This document shows positions 21,654-44,917 of a stretch of 64,000 nucleotides of DNA, piece by piece. The translations under genes were made by a program, and so were the position numbers. The stretch spans positions 1 to 64,000 of the forward strand of contig JADLFL010000052.1 of assembly GCA_020845575.1 (NCBI GenBank), written 5' to 3'. Within the stretch, counting starts at the first letter, position 1, and every line of letters starts with the position of its first letter. Source of the stretch: Acidobacteriota bacterium (GTDB taxonomy: Bacteria > Acidobacteriota > Vicinamibacteria > Vicinamibacterales > Vicinamibacteraceae). Under the pieces are notes generated by a model. That model was given only the letters and a program-made list of their open reading frames with translations. It had not been told where the DNA came from and did not search any database.

Positions 21654-21691
21654 GGCCTGCCGCGCCGTAGCGCGCAAGCGCGAAGGCGGGC
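21654..21691. repeat. 38-base dispersed element, copy 1
   Basis: 37 of 38 bases match the reverse complement of 39379-39416. It is rich in GCGC and partly self-complementary. It lies between two divergent starts and just before the phosphotriesterase-like ATG. A degraded relative may be at 50588-50628. Confidence 0.7.
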
Positions 21692-33746: not shown

Positions 33747-34510
33747 GGTATTGTCTCCACGAAGCGCGCCACCTCCTCGGCGAACACGTCACGACGCGTC
33801 ACGCAGCCCCAGTGTCCCGTGCGGTCGAGCGTCACGTGTCGCGCGTTGGGCAGCCAGTCCATCATCCGGCAACTCGCCTCGGCCGGCACGATGCGATCGA
33901 GTCCACGCTCACCGGTGACCAGCAGCGTCGGCTGGTGAACCTGCCGGCAGTCATGCACGAGGTTCTCGCCGGCAAGGAGGTGCAGCCGGTGCGCCATGCG
34001 TCCGGGCGACTGTGGCGCCTGCACGGCGAGCCCGAGCATCGCCAGCGCCCGTGTGTGCCACGCACCGCCGTACGCAGCGCGCAACTCCGGCATGACGCGA
34101 CGGGGTGATCCGCCGAAGAACACCGGGGCGAGCAGGTACGGGTGGTTCGCCATGCGGCTGATGCGCGCGTCTGGCGTGTAGTCGGCGTTGAGAGGCGACG
34201 CCAGCACGAGCGCCCGCACGCGTTCGGGAAATCGCGCGGCCAGCCTGATGGCCACCAGCCCGCCATACGAGATGCCGCACGCGATCGCCGGGCCGCTCGT
34301 GACGCGGTTGAGCGCGTTGATCGCCTGCCGGACGAGGTCGTCGAACGACGCGGGCGCGAGGGGCGGCACCGTCCCGTGTTCGCCCGCGAGCGAGTAGCTC
34401 ACCACGCGATGGCGGCGCGCGAGAGCCTCGACCGCCGGACGTATCCACTCCCAGCGTCCCTGGATGCCGGGGATCACCAGCAGCGTGGGTCCGTGTCCCG
34501 TGACGATCAT
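33743..34510 (-). CDS. Alpha/beta hydrolase in the beta-oxidation operon
   Basis: 255 residues. Strand beta3 and oxyanion region [13 protein letters not shown]; nucleophile elbow [10 protein letters not shown] near residue 90 (G-x-S-Y-G); acid region [11 protein letters not shown] near 203 and the His in [10 protein letters not shown] near 233. No signal peptide. A thioesterase-like or ester-cleaving role feeding acyl groups to the neighbouring thiolase and dehydrogenase is a reasonable guess from context only. The ATG overlaps the HADH/ECH stop (TGATG), and the stop overlaps the thiolase start. Confidence 0.87.
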
Positions 34511-36816
34511 CAGTTCCGGAGCGTCTTGCCCGTTTCGAGCGTGTACGCGATGCGGGCCTGGGTCTTGGGTTCGCCACACAGGCTCAGGAACGCCTCGCGT
34601 TCGAGATCGAGCAGGGACGCTTCGCTGACCTCCGTGGCGTGCGGCACGTCGCCACCGGCGAGGATCCACGCGAGCCTGCGGCCGATCGTCGCGTCGTGGT
34701 CGCTGATCCGCCCGGCCCGGTGTGCCAGGTGGACGCCGAGGTCGAGCGCCGCCCGCACATCGGGACCGCCGACGGGAATCGCCGCGGGCGCGTGACCCGG
34801 CGCGTACGAGGCGGCGCGCGCTTTCACGAGCTCGCGTGCATCGGCGTGCAGGCGCGTGCGATGCATGCTCACCGCATCGCCCTGACGCAGGTACCCCAGC
34901 GCGCGTGCGTGCGCCGCGCTCGTCGAGACGAGACCGAAGCCGATCGTCTCGAACACGCGCTGCACGAACGGCAGCACGTCGGCCTGCGTCGACGGCCGCT
35001 GCTGCATTGCACGCCACAGCATTTCCTTGGTGCCGCAGCCGGCAGGGATGACGCCGACACCAACCTCGACGAGCCCCATGTACGTCTCGGCCGCGGCCTG
35101 CACGCCCGACGCGTGCAGCGCCATCTCGGTTGCGCCACCGAGCGTGAGCCCGTTGATCGCCGTCACGACGGGCACCTGCGCGTCGCGCAGCCGCAGCACC
35201 GTGCGCTGGAACGTCCGCACCATCGCGTCGAGCGCATCCCACTCGCCATCCTGCGCTTCCATCAGCACGAGCAGCAGGTTGGCGCCCGCCGAGAACACGG
35301 GGCCCTGCGTGCCGATCACGAGGCCGATACCCTCTCGCTCGGCGCGATCGAGGCCCTCCTGGATCATCGCGAGCGTGTCACCGCCGATGGCGTTCATCTT
35401 CGAGTGCAGTTCGACGGCGAAGACGCCGTCGCCGGTGTCGAGGATCGACCCCGCGGTGTTGGACGCCACGACAGCCTGCCGTTCGCGCGCACTGGCGAGA
35501 ATCAACAGCTCGGCGGGTTCCGCGCGGAAGGCACCCCGTTCGCGAACCGTATCGCGCCCCGCGGCACGGGCGTCGGCGAGGATCGGCGGGAGGTCGTCGG
35601 ACGTTCCCGACTCGCCGCGCATCGCACCGATCAGCGCCTCGATTCCGATCGCGTCGATGATCTCGAACGGGCCCAGGTCCCAGCCGAACCCCCATCGCAT
35701 CGCCCTGTCCACATCGTCGATGTGGTGGGCGATCTGCGGCCAGACGCGCGCGGTGTAGAGCAGCGTCCCGCCGAGCGTGGCGCGCGTGAACGCCGACTCC
35801 TCCGAGGAACCCAGCATCAGCGCCTTGATGCGTCCGGCGGCACCGCCCCGTGCGTCGCGCAATGCGTCGAGCGCCGGGCGTACGACGGGTATGCGCGGCA
35901 CGTACTCGAACGTGGCCGGATCGAGGACGAGGATCTCGGACGCCCCGCCCGGGCCCTTCACGCGCTTGAAGAAGCCCTGGCCGGCCTTCTCGCCGATCCA
36001 TCCACGCTCGAGCAGGCCGGCGATGCGGGGACCCACAGTGAACAACTCGCGCAGCGCGGGATCCGTGGTGCGCTCGACGAAGTTGCGTGCCACCTGGACC
36101 GCGACGTCGAGGCCCGTGATGTCGAGCGTCCTGAACGTCGCGCTCTTCGGTCTGCCGATCGCGGGACCCGTCATCGCGTCGATCGTGTCGATGTCGAACG
36201 GCCCCAGTTCCCAGGCGCGCAGTACCGCGAAGAGGCCGTACAGGCCGATGTGGTTCGCGATGAAGTTGGGCGAGTCCTTCGCCACCACCACGCTACGCCC
36301 GAGCCTGACGTCGAGCCAGTGCCGCACGCGCGCCACCGTGTCGTCGCTCGTCGCGGCAACGGGGATCACTTCGACAAGCGGCATGTAGCGCGGCGGATTG
36401 AAGAAGTGCGTGCCGACGAAATGGCTCGCGAACGCGTCGGATCGTCCCTCGACGAGGCTCGTCAGCGGCAGGCCAGACGTGTTCGAGCTGACGATCGTCT
36501 CGGACCCGCGTTCGGCGTCGATCCGCTCGAACAACGTGCGTTTGGGCTCGATCCGCTCGACGATGGCTTCGATGATCCAGTCGGCACTGCCGAAATCACC
36601 ATCGTCGATGGCACCGGTGCGCACGAGCGCACCCTGCTCCGCGGTGAAGAGCGGGTCAGGCTTCAGCGCCTGCGCGCGCTTCCAGCCGGCTGCCGCCGCG
36701 GCGGCGTCGACATCGAGCAGGTGGACCGGGACGCCGGCATTGGCCAGATGCGCGGCGATCTGCGCACCCATCGTCCCGGCGCCGACCACGATGGCGTTGC
36801 GAAGGGGCTTCGACAC
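34510..36816 (-). CDS. 3-hydroxyacyl-CoA dehydrogenase/enoyl-CoA hydratase fusion
   Basis: 768 residues from GTG 36816. The order is dehydrogenase first (AIVVGAGTMGAQIAAHLANA NAD motif; SSNTSGLPLT; HFFNPPRYMPLVEVI), C-terminal 3HCDH repeats (200-450), then an enoyl-CoA hydratase domain (about 480-680; GPVFSAGANL, NGLTLGGATEMALHAS and VEVGVGVIPAGCGT with the two catalytic Glu). This arrangement matches FadN-like rather than FadB-like proteins, where the hydratase comes first. It hydrates and oxidises acyl-CoA in beta-oxidation. First gene of the operon; its GTG has AATAAT 8 bases upstream. Confidence 0.94.
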   Translation of the reverse strand: MSKPLRNAIVVGAGTMGAQIAAHLANAGVPVHLLDVDAAAAAAGWKRAQALKPDPLFTAEQGALVRTGAIDDGDFGSADWIIEAIVERIEPKRTLFERIDAERGSETIVSSNTSGLPLTSLVEGRSDAFASHFVGTHFFNPPRYMPLVEVIPVAATSDDTVARVRHWLDVRLGRSVVVAKDSPNFIANHIGLYGLFAVLRAWELGPFDIDTIDAMTGPAIGRPKSATFRTLDITGLDVAVQVARNFVERTTDPALRELFTVGPRIAGLLERGWIGEKAGQGFFKRVKGPGGASEILVLDPATFEYVPRIPVVRPALDALRDARGGAAGRIKALMLGSSEESAFTRATLGGTLLYTARVWPQIAHHIDDVDRAMRWGFGWDLGPFEIIDAIGIEALIGAMRGESGTSDDLPPILADARAAGRDTVRERGAFRAEPAELLILASARERQAVVASNTAGSILDTGDGVFAVELHSKMNAIGGDTLAMIQEGLDRAEREGIGLVIGTQGPVFSAGANLLLVLMEAQDGEWDALDAMVRTFQRTVLRLRDAQVPVVTAINGLTLGGATEMALHASGVQAAAETYMGLVEVGVGVIPAGCGTKEMLWRAMQQRPSTQADVLPFVQRVFETIGFGLVSTSAAHARALGYLRQGDAVSMHRTRLHADARELVKARAASYAPGHAPAAIPVGGPDVRAALDLGVHLAHRAGRISDHDATIGRRLAWILAGGDVPHATEVSEASLLDLEREAFLSLCGEPKTQARIAYTLETGKTLRN

Positions 36817-36854: not shown

Positions 36855-36887
36855 CCGGCAACCGGCAATGGGCAACCGGCAACCGGT
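36855..36887. repeat. Heptamer repeat, left arm of a perfect 33-base inverted pair
   Basis: Units CCGGCAA, CCGGCAA, TGGGCAA, CCGGCAA, CCGGT. The 33 bases are the exact reverse complement of 41131-41163. It sits between the divergent starts of the beta-oxidation operon and the AmiE/NamZ-like gene. Confidence 0.85.
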
Positions 36888-36929
36888 TGGAGCAGTGGGA
36901 GGCCACGCCTCACCGGCGGTGTTCGGGTA

Positions 36930-36935
36930 GATAAT
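36930..36935 (+). promoter_or_regulatory. -10-like GATAAT, leaderless start of AmiE/NamZ-like gene
   Basis: GATAAT ends 8 bases before the ATG at 36944, with no Shine-Dalgarno. Together with 36825-36830 it makes a divergent leaderless pair around the heptamer repeat. Confidence 0.45.
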
Positions 36936-36943
36936 GCCGAGTC

Positions 36944-39376
36944 ATGTCGCGACCGTTCACCTTGTATGTTGCCTGCCTGCTGATCGGCGTTCTTGCGCAT
37001 GCGCCTGCCGTCAGCGCCCAGACGCCGGCGCGGCGCGCACGCCCCGCGTCGGCGTCGAGCCGGTTCGACCTGCCGCGGCTCGCCCGCATCCCGGCGCTCG
37101 TCGAAGAGGCCGTCGCACGCAAGGAACTGCCCGGCGCCGTGGTAGCCGTGGGCACGGAGACGGGGATCGCCTGGCAGGCGTCGATCGGCCAGCGCTCGCT
37201 GCAGCCGGCGCCGGAGAAGATGACGGCCGACACCATCTTCGATGCCGCGTCGCTCACCAAGGTCGTCGCCACGACAACGGCCATCATGATGCTGGTCGAG
37301 CAGGGAAGGCTTCGACTTACCGATCGGGTGGCGCTGCACATCCCGGGCTTCGAGCGCTACGGCAAGCGCGATATCACGATCCGTCACCTGATGACGCACA
37401 CGTCCGGACTCAGGCCAGACCTCGAGTTCAACCCGGAATGGAACGGCTACGACACCGCCATCTCGAAAGCCACGGACGAAGTGCCCGTGGCAGGCCTCGA
37501 CGTGCGCGTCATCTATTCGGACATCAACTATTTCCTCCTCGGCCACATCGTCCGCGTGGTGTCCGGTGAGCCGCTCGACGAGTTCACGCGCAAGCGCATC
37601 TTCATCCCGCTCGGGATGAAGGACACGATGTTCAAGCCGCCCGCGTCGCTCGCACGCCGCATCGCGCCGACGGAGAAGTGCCTGCCGATCTCGTATCCGT
37701 GCGGCCAGGACGGCGGCACGTGGCTGCGTGGCGTGGTCCACGACCCGACGGCGCGGCGCATGGACAACGTGGCGGGTCATGCAGGACTGTTCACCACGGC
37801 CGCCGATCTCGCGCGGTTCGCGCGCATGCTGCTCAACGGCGGCCAGCTCGAAGGCGTGCGCATCATGTCGCCGCTGACTGTTGCGCGCATGACGTCGCCG
37901 TCGACGCCCCCGGGACAGCGCAACGTGCGCGGGCTCGGCTGGGACATCAACTCCAGTTTCTCGGCCAACAAAGGTGACCTGACGCCGACGCTGTCGTTCG
38001 GCCACACGGGCTTCACCGGCACGTCGCTGTGGATCGACCCCGGTACGCGGACGTTCGTCGTGTTCCTGTCCAATCGCGTGCATCCCGACGGCAAGGGCGA
38101 CGTCACGGCCCTGCGCGCGAAGGTCGCCAACATCGCTGGCGGTGCGATTCGTGTCGCGCCGACGCCCGTGGTGAGCACGCACGGTTTCTCGCAGACACCC
38201 GCGTCGGGAGTGATTCCGGCGCGACCCGCGATGCGAACCATGACGGGCATCGACGTGCTGCAGGCCGAGTCGTTCGCGCGGATCGCCGGCAGGAAGATCG
38301 GCCTGCTCACCAATCACACCGGCCGCACGCGCGGCGGGCAGTCCACCATCGATGCGTTCGCGGCCGCGAAGAACCTCACGCTCGTGGCGCTCTTCAGTCC
38401 CGAACACGGCATCCGCGGCATCCTCGACGAGGAAGTGCCGTCATCTGTCGACGAGAAGACGGGGCTCGCGATCCACTCCCTCTACGGCAAGACGCGCCGC
38501 GTCACGCCCGAGACGATGAAGGGCATCGACACGATGGTGGTGGACCTGCAGGACATCGGCAGCCGCTTCTACACGTACATGTCCGCGCTCGGCTACCTTC
38601 TCGAGGATGCGGCGGCGCAGAACTTCGAAGTGGTCGTCCTCGACCGTCCGAACCCGGTCAACGGCTGGCAGGTCGAGGGACCGAAGCCGGACCCGAGTCC
38701 CGCGGGCGAACAGCGGCCGTACATCGCCTACTGGCCGACGATGCCGGTACGGCACGGGATGACACTGGGCGAACTGGCGAGGCTGTTCAACGAAGAGGGG
38801 AAGATTGGCGCAACGCTCACGGTGGTGCCGCTGCAGCACTGGTCGCGCGAGTCGTGGTGGGACGAGACGGCGCTTATGTGGGTGAATCCGTCGCCGAACA
38901 TGCGCAACGTGACGCAGGCCACGCTGTATCCGGGCATCGGCGCCGTAGAGTACGCGAACCTCTCGGTGGGGCGCGGCACTGACGCGCCGTTCGAGCGGAT
39001 CGGCGCGCCGTGGATCGATGGCCTGCTGCTCGCCGAGGCGCTCAACGCACGGAACCTGCCCGGCATCCGCTTCTACCCGATCACCTTCACGCCCAACGCG
39101 AGCGTGTACAAGGACGAGGAGTGCCAGGGCGTGTACTTCATCGTCACCGATCGCACGGCGCTGCGTCCGGTGCGCGTGGGGCTGGAGATCGTGAGCGCGC
39201 TTGGCCGCCTGTTTCCCGGCAAGCTCGATCTGAAGCGCACGGCCATCCTGTATGGATCGGCCGATCAACTCGCGCGCGCGCTCACGGGCGAAGATCCGGC
39301 ACTCCTCGCAGAACAGTGGTCCACCGACGAAGTCGCCTGGCACACGCTGCGCGCGAAATACCTGATGTACAAGTAG
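36944..39376 (+). CDS. Fused serine beta-lactamase-fold (AmiE-like) and NamZ-like (DUF1343) exported enzyme
   Basis: 810 residues with a signal peptide ending near VSAQ (26). Residues about 45-400 are a class C beta-lactamase/AmiE-type domain: S-x-x-K as SLTK at 103-106, Y-S-D near 190, and HTG in SFGHTGFTG. Residues about 430-810 are DUF1343: GRKIGLLTNHTGR, LFSPEHGIRG, VDLQDIGSRFYTYMSALGY and LDRPNPVNG. DUF1343 includes NamZ, an exo-N-acetylmuramidase (GH171), which in Bacillus subtilis is encoded beside the amidase AmiE. The fusion would strip peptide and MurNAc from wall fragments. The beta-lactamase domain might instead be an esterase or peptidase. Confidence 0.9.
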   Translation: MSRPFTLYVACLLIGVLAHAPAVSAQTPARRARPASASSRFDLPRLARIPALVEEAVARKELPGAVVAVGTETGIAWQASIGQRSLQPAPEKMTADTIFDAASLTKVVATTTAIMMLVEQGRLRLTDRVALHIPGFERYGKRDITIRHLMTHTSGLRPDLEFNPEWNGYDTAISKATDEVPVAGLDVRVIYSDINYFLLGHIVRVVSGEPLDEFTRKRIFIPLGMKDTMFKPPASLARRIAPTEKCLPISYPCGQDGGTWLRGVVHDPTARRMDNVAGHAGLFTTAADLARFARMLLNGGQLEGVRIMSPLTVARMTSPSTPPGQRNVRGLGWDINSSFSANKGDLTPTLSFGHTGFTGTSLWIDPGTRTFVVFLSNRVHPDGKGDVTALRAKVANIAGGAIRVAPTPVVSTHGFSQTPASGVIPARPAMRTMTGIDVLQAESFARIAGRKIGLLTNHTGRTRGGQSTIDAFAAAKNLTLVALFSPEHGIRGILDEEVPSSVDEKTGLAIHSLYGKTRRVTPETMKGIDTMVVDLQDIGSRFYTYMSALGYLLEDAAAQNFEVVVLDRPNPVNGWQVEGPKPDPSPAGEQRPYIAYWPTMPVRHGMTLGELARLFNEEGKIGATLTVVPLQHWSRESWWDETALMWVNPSPNMRNVTQATLYPGIGAVEYANLSVGRGTDAPFERIGAPWIDGLLLAEALNARNLPGIRFYPITFTPNASVYKDEECQGVYFIVTDRTALRPVRVGLEIVSALGRLFPGKLDLKRTAILYGSADQLARALTGEDPALLAEQWSTDEVAWHTLRAKYLMYK

Positions 39377-39378
39377 GG

Positions 39379-39416
39379 GCCCGCCTTCGCGCTGGCGCGC
39401 TACGGCGCGGCAGGCC
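39379..39416. repeat. 38-base dispersed element, copy 2
   Basis: Starts 2 bases after the NamZ-like stop. Its reverse complement matches 21654-21691 in 37 of 38 bases. Confidence 0.7.
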
Positions 39417-39417
39417 A

Positions 39418-39442
39418 CCGGGCACCGATCGCCGGGCACCGG
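39418..39442. repeat. Heptamer repeat, CCGGGCA type
   Basis: Units CCGGGCA, CCGATCG, CCGGGCA, CCGG in strict 7-base phase. The same pattern is at 42411-42435. The last unit provides the left arm of the terminator at 39435. Confidence 0.65.
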
Positions 39443-39458
39443 AACGTGGTGCCTTTTT
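39435..39458 (+). terminator. Rho-independent terminator of the AmiE/NamZ-like gene
   Basis: GGCACC (39435-39440), loop of 7, GGTGCC (39448-39453), then TTTTT. The best classical terminator in the window. Confidence 0.75.
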
Positions 39459-39459
39459 C

Positions 39460-39487
39460 GTCATTCGGCATTCGTCATTCGGCATTC
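39460..39487. repeat. Heptamer repeat, GTCATTC/GGCATTC type (4 units)
   Basis: GTCATTC, GGCATTC, GTCATTC, GGCATTC. It is the complement of the GAATGAC repeat at 27184. On the minus strand it supplies the last codons and the TGA stop of the esterase gene. Confidence 0.75.
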
Positions 39488-41103
39488 ACCCCGATCACCC
39501 CCCGCAGCCAGGCGGCGACCTCCCGCTCCCAGATGCGCCAGCGAGGCTGGTCGTGCCAGGCTTCCATGCCGTGCGGGGCGCCATCGATTTCGACGGCCGT
39601 GACGCGGGCGCCGGCGGATCGCACCGTGGCGACGTACGCGCGCTGCTGATCGATCAGGCGATCCGACGTGCCGGCGACGAGCAGGAGCGGTGGCATCTCC
39701 TTCGCAGCGTGACGCACGGGCGAGAACGCGCGCAGCGTCTCGCGTGCGGGGTCGTCGAGCGAGGTCAGGCCGAACAGCCGGCGCGCCAGGGAGCGCGGGT
39801 TGGCCGGATCGCCCGCCATCGCCTCGATGTCGTACACCCCGTAGAAGGACACCACGCCGGCGAGTGAGCGCTCCGTTGCGGCGAGATGCGTCACGATCTG
39901 TCCACTGGCGGATTCGCCGACGAGGATCAGCTTCGACGGATCGATCCGCAGCGGACGGCCGTGTTCGCGCAGCCACGCCAGCGCCGTCGCGACGTCAGTC
40001 ATCTGTTCGCGATTGGTGACCCGTGGCGTGAGCCTGTAGTCGATCGACACCCACGCGATGTCGAGCGACGAGGCCAGCTGCACCATCGGTGTTGCGTACG
40101 TGACGCGGTCGCCGGCTTCCCATCCGCCGCCATGCACGATCACGACGGCTGCGTGCGGTGTCTCTCCGGCCGGGACCCACGCATCGAGCGTGAGCCCGTT
40201 CACGGCGTCGAACACGACGCGCTTGTGCAGGCCGCCTGCGGGCGACGGATGTGCGGCTTCGGGGACCGCGCCGATGCGCGCGTCCAGTGCGCGCAGCATC
40301 GCCGCCTTGTAGCCCCACTGCGACGGCCACCAGTTCTCCACGCGATGGCTCGCCCCGGCGACCTCCACGACGTCGCATGCAGCAGTAGCGCCCGTGCACG
40401 CTGCGCGCGCCCGGGCGAGCGGCACGTCACTGTCACTGCCACCGTGCACGATGTATGTCGGGACGACGGGGGGAACGACGTTGTCGAAGCGCCCTCCGGC
40501 AATCACGACAGCCGCGGGTGCCTGAGGCGCGCCGCCGAATCGTCCGAGCCGCAGCCGGTGCAGCGTGTCCGCGAGATGCAACGCGACGGGCGCCGCGCTG
40601 TCTTCGGCAACCAGCACCGTCCTCCTGGCATCCACGTGCAGCGCTGTCGCGTGACACATCGTCAGCATCGCCAGCGCGCGCTGCACATCGTCGGCCGCGG
40701 TGCTCACGACGCCGAAACGATAGTCGGCGGTGGCCACGACGTACCCGGCGTCGCCGAACGTCTCGATCAACTGGCCGACGTACGACGAGCGCTGACCGAC
40801 GGTGCCCGCGCCGCCGCGCAGCACGAGTGCGAGCGGCCGGGCGGGCCGGGCAAGCCCGGCCTCTACACCCATCTCGTCGGAGGGGCCGGGCTTGCCAGGC
40901 CCGTCGGCGTGGGGATACACGTCGAGCCGCAGCGGTTCACGCGACGTGCCGCCGTAGCGCACGTTCATCAACCCGCCAGGCAGCAATGCCGCGCCCTGGC
41001 TGCCGTCGGGCGTGAGCGGCAGGCAGTCCTCGCCCCGCACCTGTGTCTGACAGGCCGAACCTGTGAGCGCACACATCAGCGGTAACAAGACCAGCAGTCG
41101 CAA
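39475..41103 (-). CDS. Tandem alpha/beta hydrolase lipoprotein (esterase), first module degenerate
   Basis: 542 residues from TTG 41103, chosen because GGAG precedes it and it yields MRLLVLLPLMCALTGSAC, a lipoprotein-like signal; ATG 41169 would translate the heptamer repeat. Module 2 (about 255-542) is an HSL-type esterase: VHGGGWEAGD, nucleophile GESASGQ, Asp in AGTSDRLID, His in DGAPHGME. Module 1 (about 30-240) has the same layout (RGGAGTVGQ, VAEDSAAPV) but lacks the G-x-S-x-G elbow, so it is probably inactive. An in-frame palindromic insert lies in module 1. The stop falls in a heptamer repeat. Confidence 0.85.
   Translation of the reverse strand: MRLLVLLPLMCALTGSACQTQVRGEDCLPLTPDGSQGAALLPGGLMNVRYGGTSREPLRLDVYPHADGPGKPGPSDEMGVEAGLARPARPLALVLRGGAGTVGQRSSYVGQLIETFGDAGYVVATADYRFGVVSTAADDVQRALAMLTMCHATALHVDARRTVLVAEDSAAPVALHLADTLHRLRLGRFGGAPQAPAAVVIAGGRFDNVVPPVVPTYIVHGGSDSDVPLARARAACTGATAACDVVEVAGASHRVENWWPSQWGYKAAMLRALDARIGAVPEAAHPSPAGGLHKRVVFDAVNGLTLDAWVPAGETPHAAVVIVHGGGWEAGDRVTYATPMVQLASSLDIAWVSIDYRLTPRVTNREQMTDVATALAWLREHGRPLRIDPSKLILVGESASGQIVTHLAATERSLAGVVSFYGVYDIEAMAGDPANPRSLARRLFGLTSLDDPARETLRAFSPVRHAAKEMPPLLLVAGTSDRLIDQQRAYVATVRSAGARVTAVEIDGAPHGMEAWHDQPRWRIWEREVAAWLRGVIGVNAE
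40844..40902. repeat. Paired palindromes inserted in frame in the esterase gene
   Basis: GGCCGGGC-AA-GCCCGGCC (40844-40861, perfect) and a second 20-base palindrome with one mismatch (40883-40902), 21 bases apart. Translated it gives a Gly/Pro/Lys-rich stretch (DGPGKPGPSDEMGVEAGLAR) between two beta-strands, looking like inserted repeat DNA that keeps the frame. Confidence 0.6.
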
Positions 41104-41130
41104 CGCCGCTCCATCGAATGCCGAAGGCGG

Positions 41131-41163
41131 ACCGGTTGCCGGTTGCCCATTGCCGGTTGCCGG
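41131..41163. repeat. Heptamer repeat, right arm of the perfect 33-base inverted pair
   Basis: Units (A)CCGGTTG, CCGGTTG, CCCATTG, CCGGTTG, CCGG. Exact reverse complement of 36855-36887. Lies between the SDR stop and the esterase start. Confidence 0.85.
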
Positions 41164-41168
41164 ACTCA

Positions 41169-41909
41169 TCACCTCACGTGCCTGCCGCCGTCGACGCGGA
41201 CCGTTTCTCCAGTGACGAATGCCGTCGTGACGAGGAACAGGACGGCGCGCGCGACTTCCATCTCGCCGCCCCATCGCTGGAGCGGTGTGGCGGCGGCGAC
41301 GATGTCGATTTCCTCCGCGTCCATGTCCGGCGGCGCGACGATGGGGCCGGGGGCGATGGCGTTGACGAGGATGCCGGCCGGCGCGAGTTCGAGCGCCAGC
41401 GCTTCGGTGAGTGCCTTCACGCCCGCCTTCGCGACGTAGTACGCCACATAGCCCGTGTACGCGGGACGTCCGCTCGCGGGCAGCCAGTCGGTGAAGTGGA
41501 CGACGTGCGCGGGCCGCTGGCGGCCAAGCAGCGGCAGCATCGCGTGCGTGACGTAGAAGGCCGACGACAGGTTCGCGTCGATGTCGGCCCGCCACGCCGC
41601 CTCGTCGATCGATTCGAGTTGTCTGGAGACGTACGTCGACGCCATGTTGACGAGGATGTCGAGCGCGCCCATCTCCGACGCAATCACGTCGGCGAGCCGC
41701 GCGCAGTCGTCGGGGCGACTCACGTCAGCCTGCACCACCAGCGCCCGCGCCCCGAGCGCTCGCACGCGCGACGCCGTCGCTTCCGCTTCCTGCCGTGACG
41801 AGCGGTACGACAGCACGACGTCGGCACCCGCACGGGCGAGCTCCTCGGCCACCACCTGACCGATACGTCGCCCTCCGGTGACGAGCGCCACTCTGTTTGT
41901 CAGCGACAC
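41169..41909 (-). CDS. Short-chain dehydrogenase/reductase, pteridine-reductase-like
   Basis: 246 residues from GTG 41909. The NADPH motif is VTGGRRIGQ; an Arg after the glycines and RSS at the end of beta2 indicate NADP(H). Then DILVNMASTY (N-x-A-S), the catalytic Tyr-Lys pair in GYVAYYVAKAG near residue 158, and PGPIVAPP. The usual catalytic Ser is replaced by Thr or Asp (HFTDWLP). The TGGxRRIG and NxAS-x-Y forms recall FolM/pteridine reductases, so a dihydropteridine or folate substrate is possible; this is not certain. Confidence 0.87.
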   Translation of the reverse strand: MSLTNRVALVTGGRRIGQVVAEELARAGADVVLSYRSSRQEAEATASRVRALGARALVVQADVSRPDDCARLADVIASEMGALDILVNMASTYVSRQLESIDEAAWRADIDANLSSAFYVTHAMLPLLGRQRPAHVVHFTDWLPASGRPAYTGYVAYYVAKAGVKALTEALALELAPAGILVNAIAPGPIVAPPDMDAEEIDIVAAATPLQRWGGEMEVARAVLFLVTTAFVTGETVRVDGGRHVR

Positions 41910-44842: not shown

Positions 44843-44917
44843 GGCGGTATCGTCTAGGGGTTAGGACACGTGGTTCTCAGCCACGGGACCGGGGTTCGAA
44901 TCCCCGTACCGCTACCA
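44843..44917 (+). tRNA. tRNA-Glu (CTC)
   Basis: 75 bases including encoded CCA. The acceptor stem GGCGGTA pairs with TACCGCT (G1-U72 wobble, common in tRNA-Glu), the D-arm is TCGTCTAGGGGTTAGGAC, the anticodon stem is CGTGG/CCACG with loop TTCTCAG (anticodon CTC at 44876-44878), and the T-arm is CCGGGGTTCGAATCCCCG. It reads GAG codons, the dominant Glu codon in this GC-rich DNA. Confidence 0.95.

Follow-up and report, generated by a model that had tools for sequence, protein, structure and literature searches.

A perfect pair of inverted 33-mers on either side of two hydrolase genes raises the question of whether the segment between them has been inverted, or whether the two sites have been made identical by copying or gene conversion. 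The pair lies in a window of 64,000 nt, the whole stretch of DNA that was analysed (contig C52, positions 1-64000), in a 4.57-Mb draft genome (G000) of 78 contigs that is about 96% complete. Direct comparison confirmed the statement of a first-pass annotation that the two 33-nt arms, separated by 4243 nt, are exact reverse complements (Table 1); no other exact inverted repeat in the window is as long. Because the longest inverted repeats in 20 first-order Markov resamples of the window reached 16-21 nt, the pair is real, is not a product of base composition and far exceeds what chance would give in unstructured DNA. The arms are very probably two copies of a dispersed four-heptad repeat with a common haplotype, and the inversion of the alpha/beta-hydrolase gene that they enclose was a separate event.

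Table 1. Features of the block between the 33-mers and of its neighbours (window coordinates)
Feature	Position	Strand	Basis or remark
3-hydroxyacyl-CoA dehydrogenase/enoyl-CoA hydratase (3HCDH), fixed left neighbour	34510..36816	-	Pfam, congener gene order
Left arm: array of four GGCAAYN heptamers (CC-TG-CC-CC haplotype)	36855..36887	+	between divergent genes
Beta-lactamase (serine hydrolase) + NamZ fusion	36944..39376	+	Pfam PF00144, PF07075, PF20732
Heptamer array, GGGCACC type, after NamZ stop	39416..39442		TRF
Heptamer array, GAATGCC/GAATGAC type, holds hydrolase stop codon	39457..39488		TRF + direct reading
Alpha/beta-hydrolase (BD-FAE/Abhydrolase_3)	39475..41103	-	Pfam; start taken as TTG 41103
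GAATGCCGAA, upstream of hydrolase start	41117..41126		direct reading; inverted match to 39479-39488
Right arm: haplotype CC-TG-CC-CC, exact reverse complement of left arm	41131..41163	-	
Short-chain dehydrogenase (SDR), fixed right neighbour	41169..41909	-	Pfam, congener gene order

The gene content given earlier for the block proved right in substance, since Pfam domains identify a gene that fuses beta-lactamase with NamZ and, convergent with it, an esterase of the BD-FAE/Abhydrolase_3 type. The start of the latter gene was placed at TTG 41103 from the congener alignment and an upstream GGAG; a coding right arm, read from the in-frame ATG 41169, was rejected because the congener proteins begin at about the TTG. 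Many of the 60 relatives searched carry the fusion over all or nearly all of its length, at identities of about 54-82%, and to judge from that distribution it looks old in this order. A structured RNA was rejected, as the one match in an Rfam scan was a tRNA gene (44843-44914, plus strand).

The arms do not stand alone in the genome. The search for further copies that the first-pass annotation had called for returned the exact 33-mer at three places only, namely the two arms and a third copy on contig C67, and its 30-nt core at 14 sites, that is, 12 beyond the arms. The TG-bearing unit (TGGGCAA), earlier regarded as odd, is contained in this core and so belongs to a common haplotype. The two arms are members of a dispersed (GGCAAYN)n family, for which a strict four-unit pattern gave 207 matches in the genome versus 0 for the reversed control pattern. 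The family repeat is roughly 32 bp long and consists of four heptads (CC GGCAAC. GGCAA.. GGCAAC. GGCAACC GG), and the arms read, by unit, CC GGCAACC GGCAATG GGCAACC GGCAACC GG. The flanks of the 14 core copies are unrelated to one another and most arrays end cleanly; a mobile element extending beyond the array was rejected, because these flanks, and likewise the loops of the inverted pairs inspected, were unrelated. G000 is the only genome of the genus in which the family is expanded, with 207 strict matches versus 0, 0, 0 and 1 in the congeners G001-G004; these are about 80% identical in protein, no closer relative was found, and at this distance orthologous array sites could not be aligned, nor did any empty site come to light.

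The arrays are regular in both length and internal order. In 682 kb of sampled sequence, made up of 20-kb stretches of which some were picked near known arrays, the commonest TRF period was 7, and exactly four units were present in 38 of the 65 arrays with at least two units. Among the sites listed, which span about half of the 207 four-unit matches, T-bearing units stood at unit 2 in 21/23 (permutation maximum 14/23), the TG unit was the second unit, with CC units on both sides, in each of the eight cases, and unit 4 was nearly always CC. A quadruplex-aware RNA fold predicted a hairpin for this array and a quadruplex for GGGAATC x4; on this model the four-unit preference seems not to need a GGG quadruplex, a two-tetrad DNA quadruplex lying outside the fold. 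A second dispersed repeat, CGCTGRCGCRCTACGGCGSGGCAGGCC, occurs in the window at 39390-39416 and 21654-21680 and at seven places in the genome with at most two mismatches, and it adjoins heptamer arrays at at least two of them.

Placement relative to genes accounts for the facing of the two arms. Arrays were intergenic in 45/61, in a genome in which heuristic gene calls assign 89% of bases to coding sequence. With the same calls, 31% of arrays lay antisense just upstream of a start, versus 12% of random intergenic points, and 27% lay in sense orientation just after a stop, versus 10%. The left arm is antisense to the 3HCDH gene, 38 nt from its start codon and 56 nt from the NamZ start, and the right arm is sense to the SDR gene, 5 nt past its stop; the arms face each other because both genes lie on the minus strand. 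If 14 copies are placed at random, one or more pairs of inverted neighbours no further than 4.3 kb apart are expected with a probability of about 0.08; when every non-homogeneous haplotype is admitted and the figure is scaled to the genome, the chance is 0.33. The facing of the arms 4.2 kb apart is thus not far from chance expectation, with the reservation that 0.08 is not a negligible surprise and leaves a small probability to a copying event specific to the pair. At closer range (<200 bp) in the sampled sequence, nine inverted neighbours were plus-minus (convergent) and none was minus-plus.

Gene order in the congeners bears on the proposed inversion. The window is colinear with two complete congener genomes (G001 and G002) over orthologous genes at about 28.9-46 kb, except for the hydrolase. 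The divergent arrangement of NamZ and 3HCDH is kept in G001, G002 and G003, the G003 contig ending inside NamZ. Since this junction is conserved, the block as a whole was not inverted, and the inversion put forward in the first-pass annotation is contradicted by the comparison of gene orientation in relatives. The alpha/beta-hydrolase gene alone is flipped: it is co-directional with NamZ in G001, G002 and G004 and opposite in the window. The sequence identities point to orthology of the hydrolase genes; among the congeners G000 diverges most in this gene, as it does in the genes beside it. Gene order shows a real single-gene inversion inside the block. As the neighbours of the hydrolase are unflipped, its breakpoints fall in 39377-39475 and at about 41103-41169; a long distance separates the left breakpoint from the left 33-mer, and the 33-mer pair therefore cannot have mediated the flip.

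These observations weigh differently on the events that could have linked the arms or turned the gene. Perfect arms 4.2 kb apart, enclosing convergent hydrolases with predicted export, would suit recombination or invertase sites at which the block flips, either as a phase switch or once. However, turning the entire block would have reversed NamZ too, which is not seen at the kept 3HCDH junction, the 30-nt core recurs at its 12 further sites, and Pfam found no recombinase among the ten genes in and around the block, so that such a switch is highly improbable. If one of the two sites had recently been copied onto the other, or converted by it, this could explain why all 33 nt, the TG unit included, are exactly identical, but it is judged quite unlikely. 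The left arm is identical to the C67 copy over 38 nt and to the right arm over 33 nt, so the local pair is not the closest pair, and the arms have no sequence in common beyond the arrays. Among the 76 arrays listed, moreover, none of 13 inverted pairs within 5 kb was identical, nor, among the sites listed, was any of the five at 55-83 bp; local homogenisation is accordingly not usual for these arrays, and a recent event linking the two arms, as earlier envisaged, is not borne out. For the hydrolase flip itself, recombination between GAATGCC-type arrays at the two ends of the gene is a candidate, because a 10-nt inverted match of this type (39479-39488 and 41117-41126) borders the gene and a longer array of the type lies at its left end. 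Against it, the match is just 10 nt, congener intergenic DNA is too diverged to align, so that the breakpoints are located no more closely than about 100 bp, the arrays may postdate the flip, and the hydrolase tree, with support of 47-82%, is too weak to place the flip on a branch or to give its polarity; this route is thus regarded as doubtful.

How the arrays themselves arise may be approached from their turnover among congeners. After the NamZ stop, G001 carries TAACGGG units grading into ACACGGG and CACCGGG in an array that starts with the stop codon itself, G002 carries GGGAGTC, G004 carries GGAAACC and the window carries the GGGCACC and GAATGCC types. At this site, place and period 7 persist while the unit sequence changes. 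Other heptamer units also occupy the same intergenic places at five congener loci (L144, L145, L148, L196 and L197 in G001, G002 and G004), and some arrays at loci of these three genomes begin at a stop codon. Such replacement, and the G001 array that incorporates a stop codon, would be compatible with arrays that grow site by site through polymerase slippage, a process proposed for heptamers in passages of PMC4692102; identical haplotypes would then be convergent, under strong constraint on the variants that persist. The fixed position of the TG unit and of T-bearing units among the sites listed and the sharp length peak at four units speak against slippage, and it is considered rather unlikely, if less than remote. 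Tentatively, and with somewhat less than even confidence, the four-heptad arrays may instead be an interspersed element of fixed length (about 32 bp), spreading one copy at a time with its haplotype kept and without a known transposase, and not slipping microsatellites, its heptamer families being replaced between species of the genus while period 7 and the place at the stop codon are retained. If this were true, the four-unit rule would not be caused by GGG-quadruplex formation.

According to the preferred explanation, that of a dispersed repeat and a separately inverted hydrolase, a four-heptad repeat of ~32 bp has multiplied in this lineage, mostly between genes and preferentially antisense just upstream of starts or sense just after stops. 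Both arms carry the common haplotype CC-TG-CC-CC of the 14 sites, and their inverted orientation would result from two favoured placements beside the minus-strand 3HCDH and SDR genes. Their identity would stem from site-to-site copying of complete arrays within the family and not from an event linking both sites, and the hydrolase was inverted on its own, with breakpoints that exclude the 33-mer pair. Among the routes first suggested, copying is retained at the level of the family, with its 14 sites and unrelated flanks; a pair-specific event and the 4.2-kb inversion are not.

Comparison with known repeats places the arrays in a familiar setting. REP/BIME sequences are similar in that they are short (about 30 bp), lie between genes, often form inverted pairs and are dispersed in one lineage, but the present arrays are built of direct heptads. 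A RAYT/REP origin was rejected, as no Y1_Tnp domain (PF01797, RAYT-type) was matched in G000 by a search that was positive in 5/14 control genomes. Cyanobacterial STRR heptamers have unit sequences other than GGCAAYN. They share with these arrays the arrangement of tandem heptanucleotides between genes, and are cited in passages of PMC4692102 for Calothrix. In Beggiatoaceae, TAACTGA direct repeats are described, in a part of PMC4679880, as abundant intergenic heptamers of one bacterial group, and they differ in consisting of one other heptamer. The closest parallel is with the GGGNATC-type heptameric repeats of Xanthomonas and Nostoc, for which passages of Rehm et al. 2015 (PMC4692102) describe genome-wide, mostly intergenic heptamer arrays (GGGAATC in Xanthomonas) that prefer four units, pair convergently when inverted, and lie either upstream of starts on the antisense strand or past stops on the sense strand; all of this is shared here. 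The present unit is GGCAAYN, with GG and not GGG, and its position-tied variants and its haplotypes recurring at unrelated sites are not described in those passages. The same passages report 83% of sites common to two Xanthomonas species, whereas in the congeners considered here, more distant relatives than those two species, the corresponding places are occupied by other heptamers. On their sequence, the arrays fit the known kind of heptamer array but not its G4-forming subclass, in that the units hold GG only and the RNA fold gives a hairpin. A search on heptamers in Acidobacteria or Luteitalea found nothing relevant among the papers covered. Unusual features of this family are the GG-based units, the recurring positional haplotypes, the lineage-specific expansion and the fact that congeners have different heptamers in the corresponding positions.

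A perfect inverted repeat, striking as it is, is thus no sure mark of an inversion switch, since it can come about as a by-product of a dispersed repeat family. A GG-based family with a four-unit preference also argues against GGG-quadruplex formation as the sole cause of that preference, and the position-fixed variants and recurring haplotypes provide a handle on how period-7 arrays multiply in bacteria.
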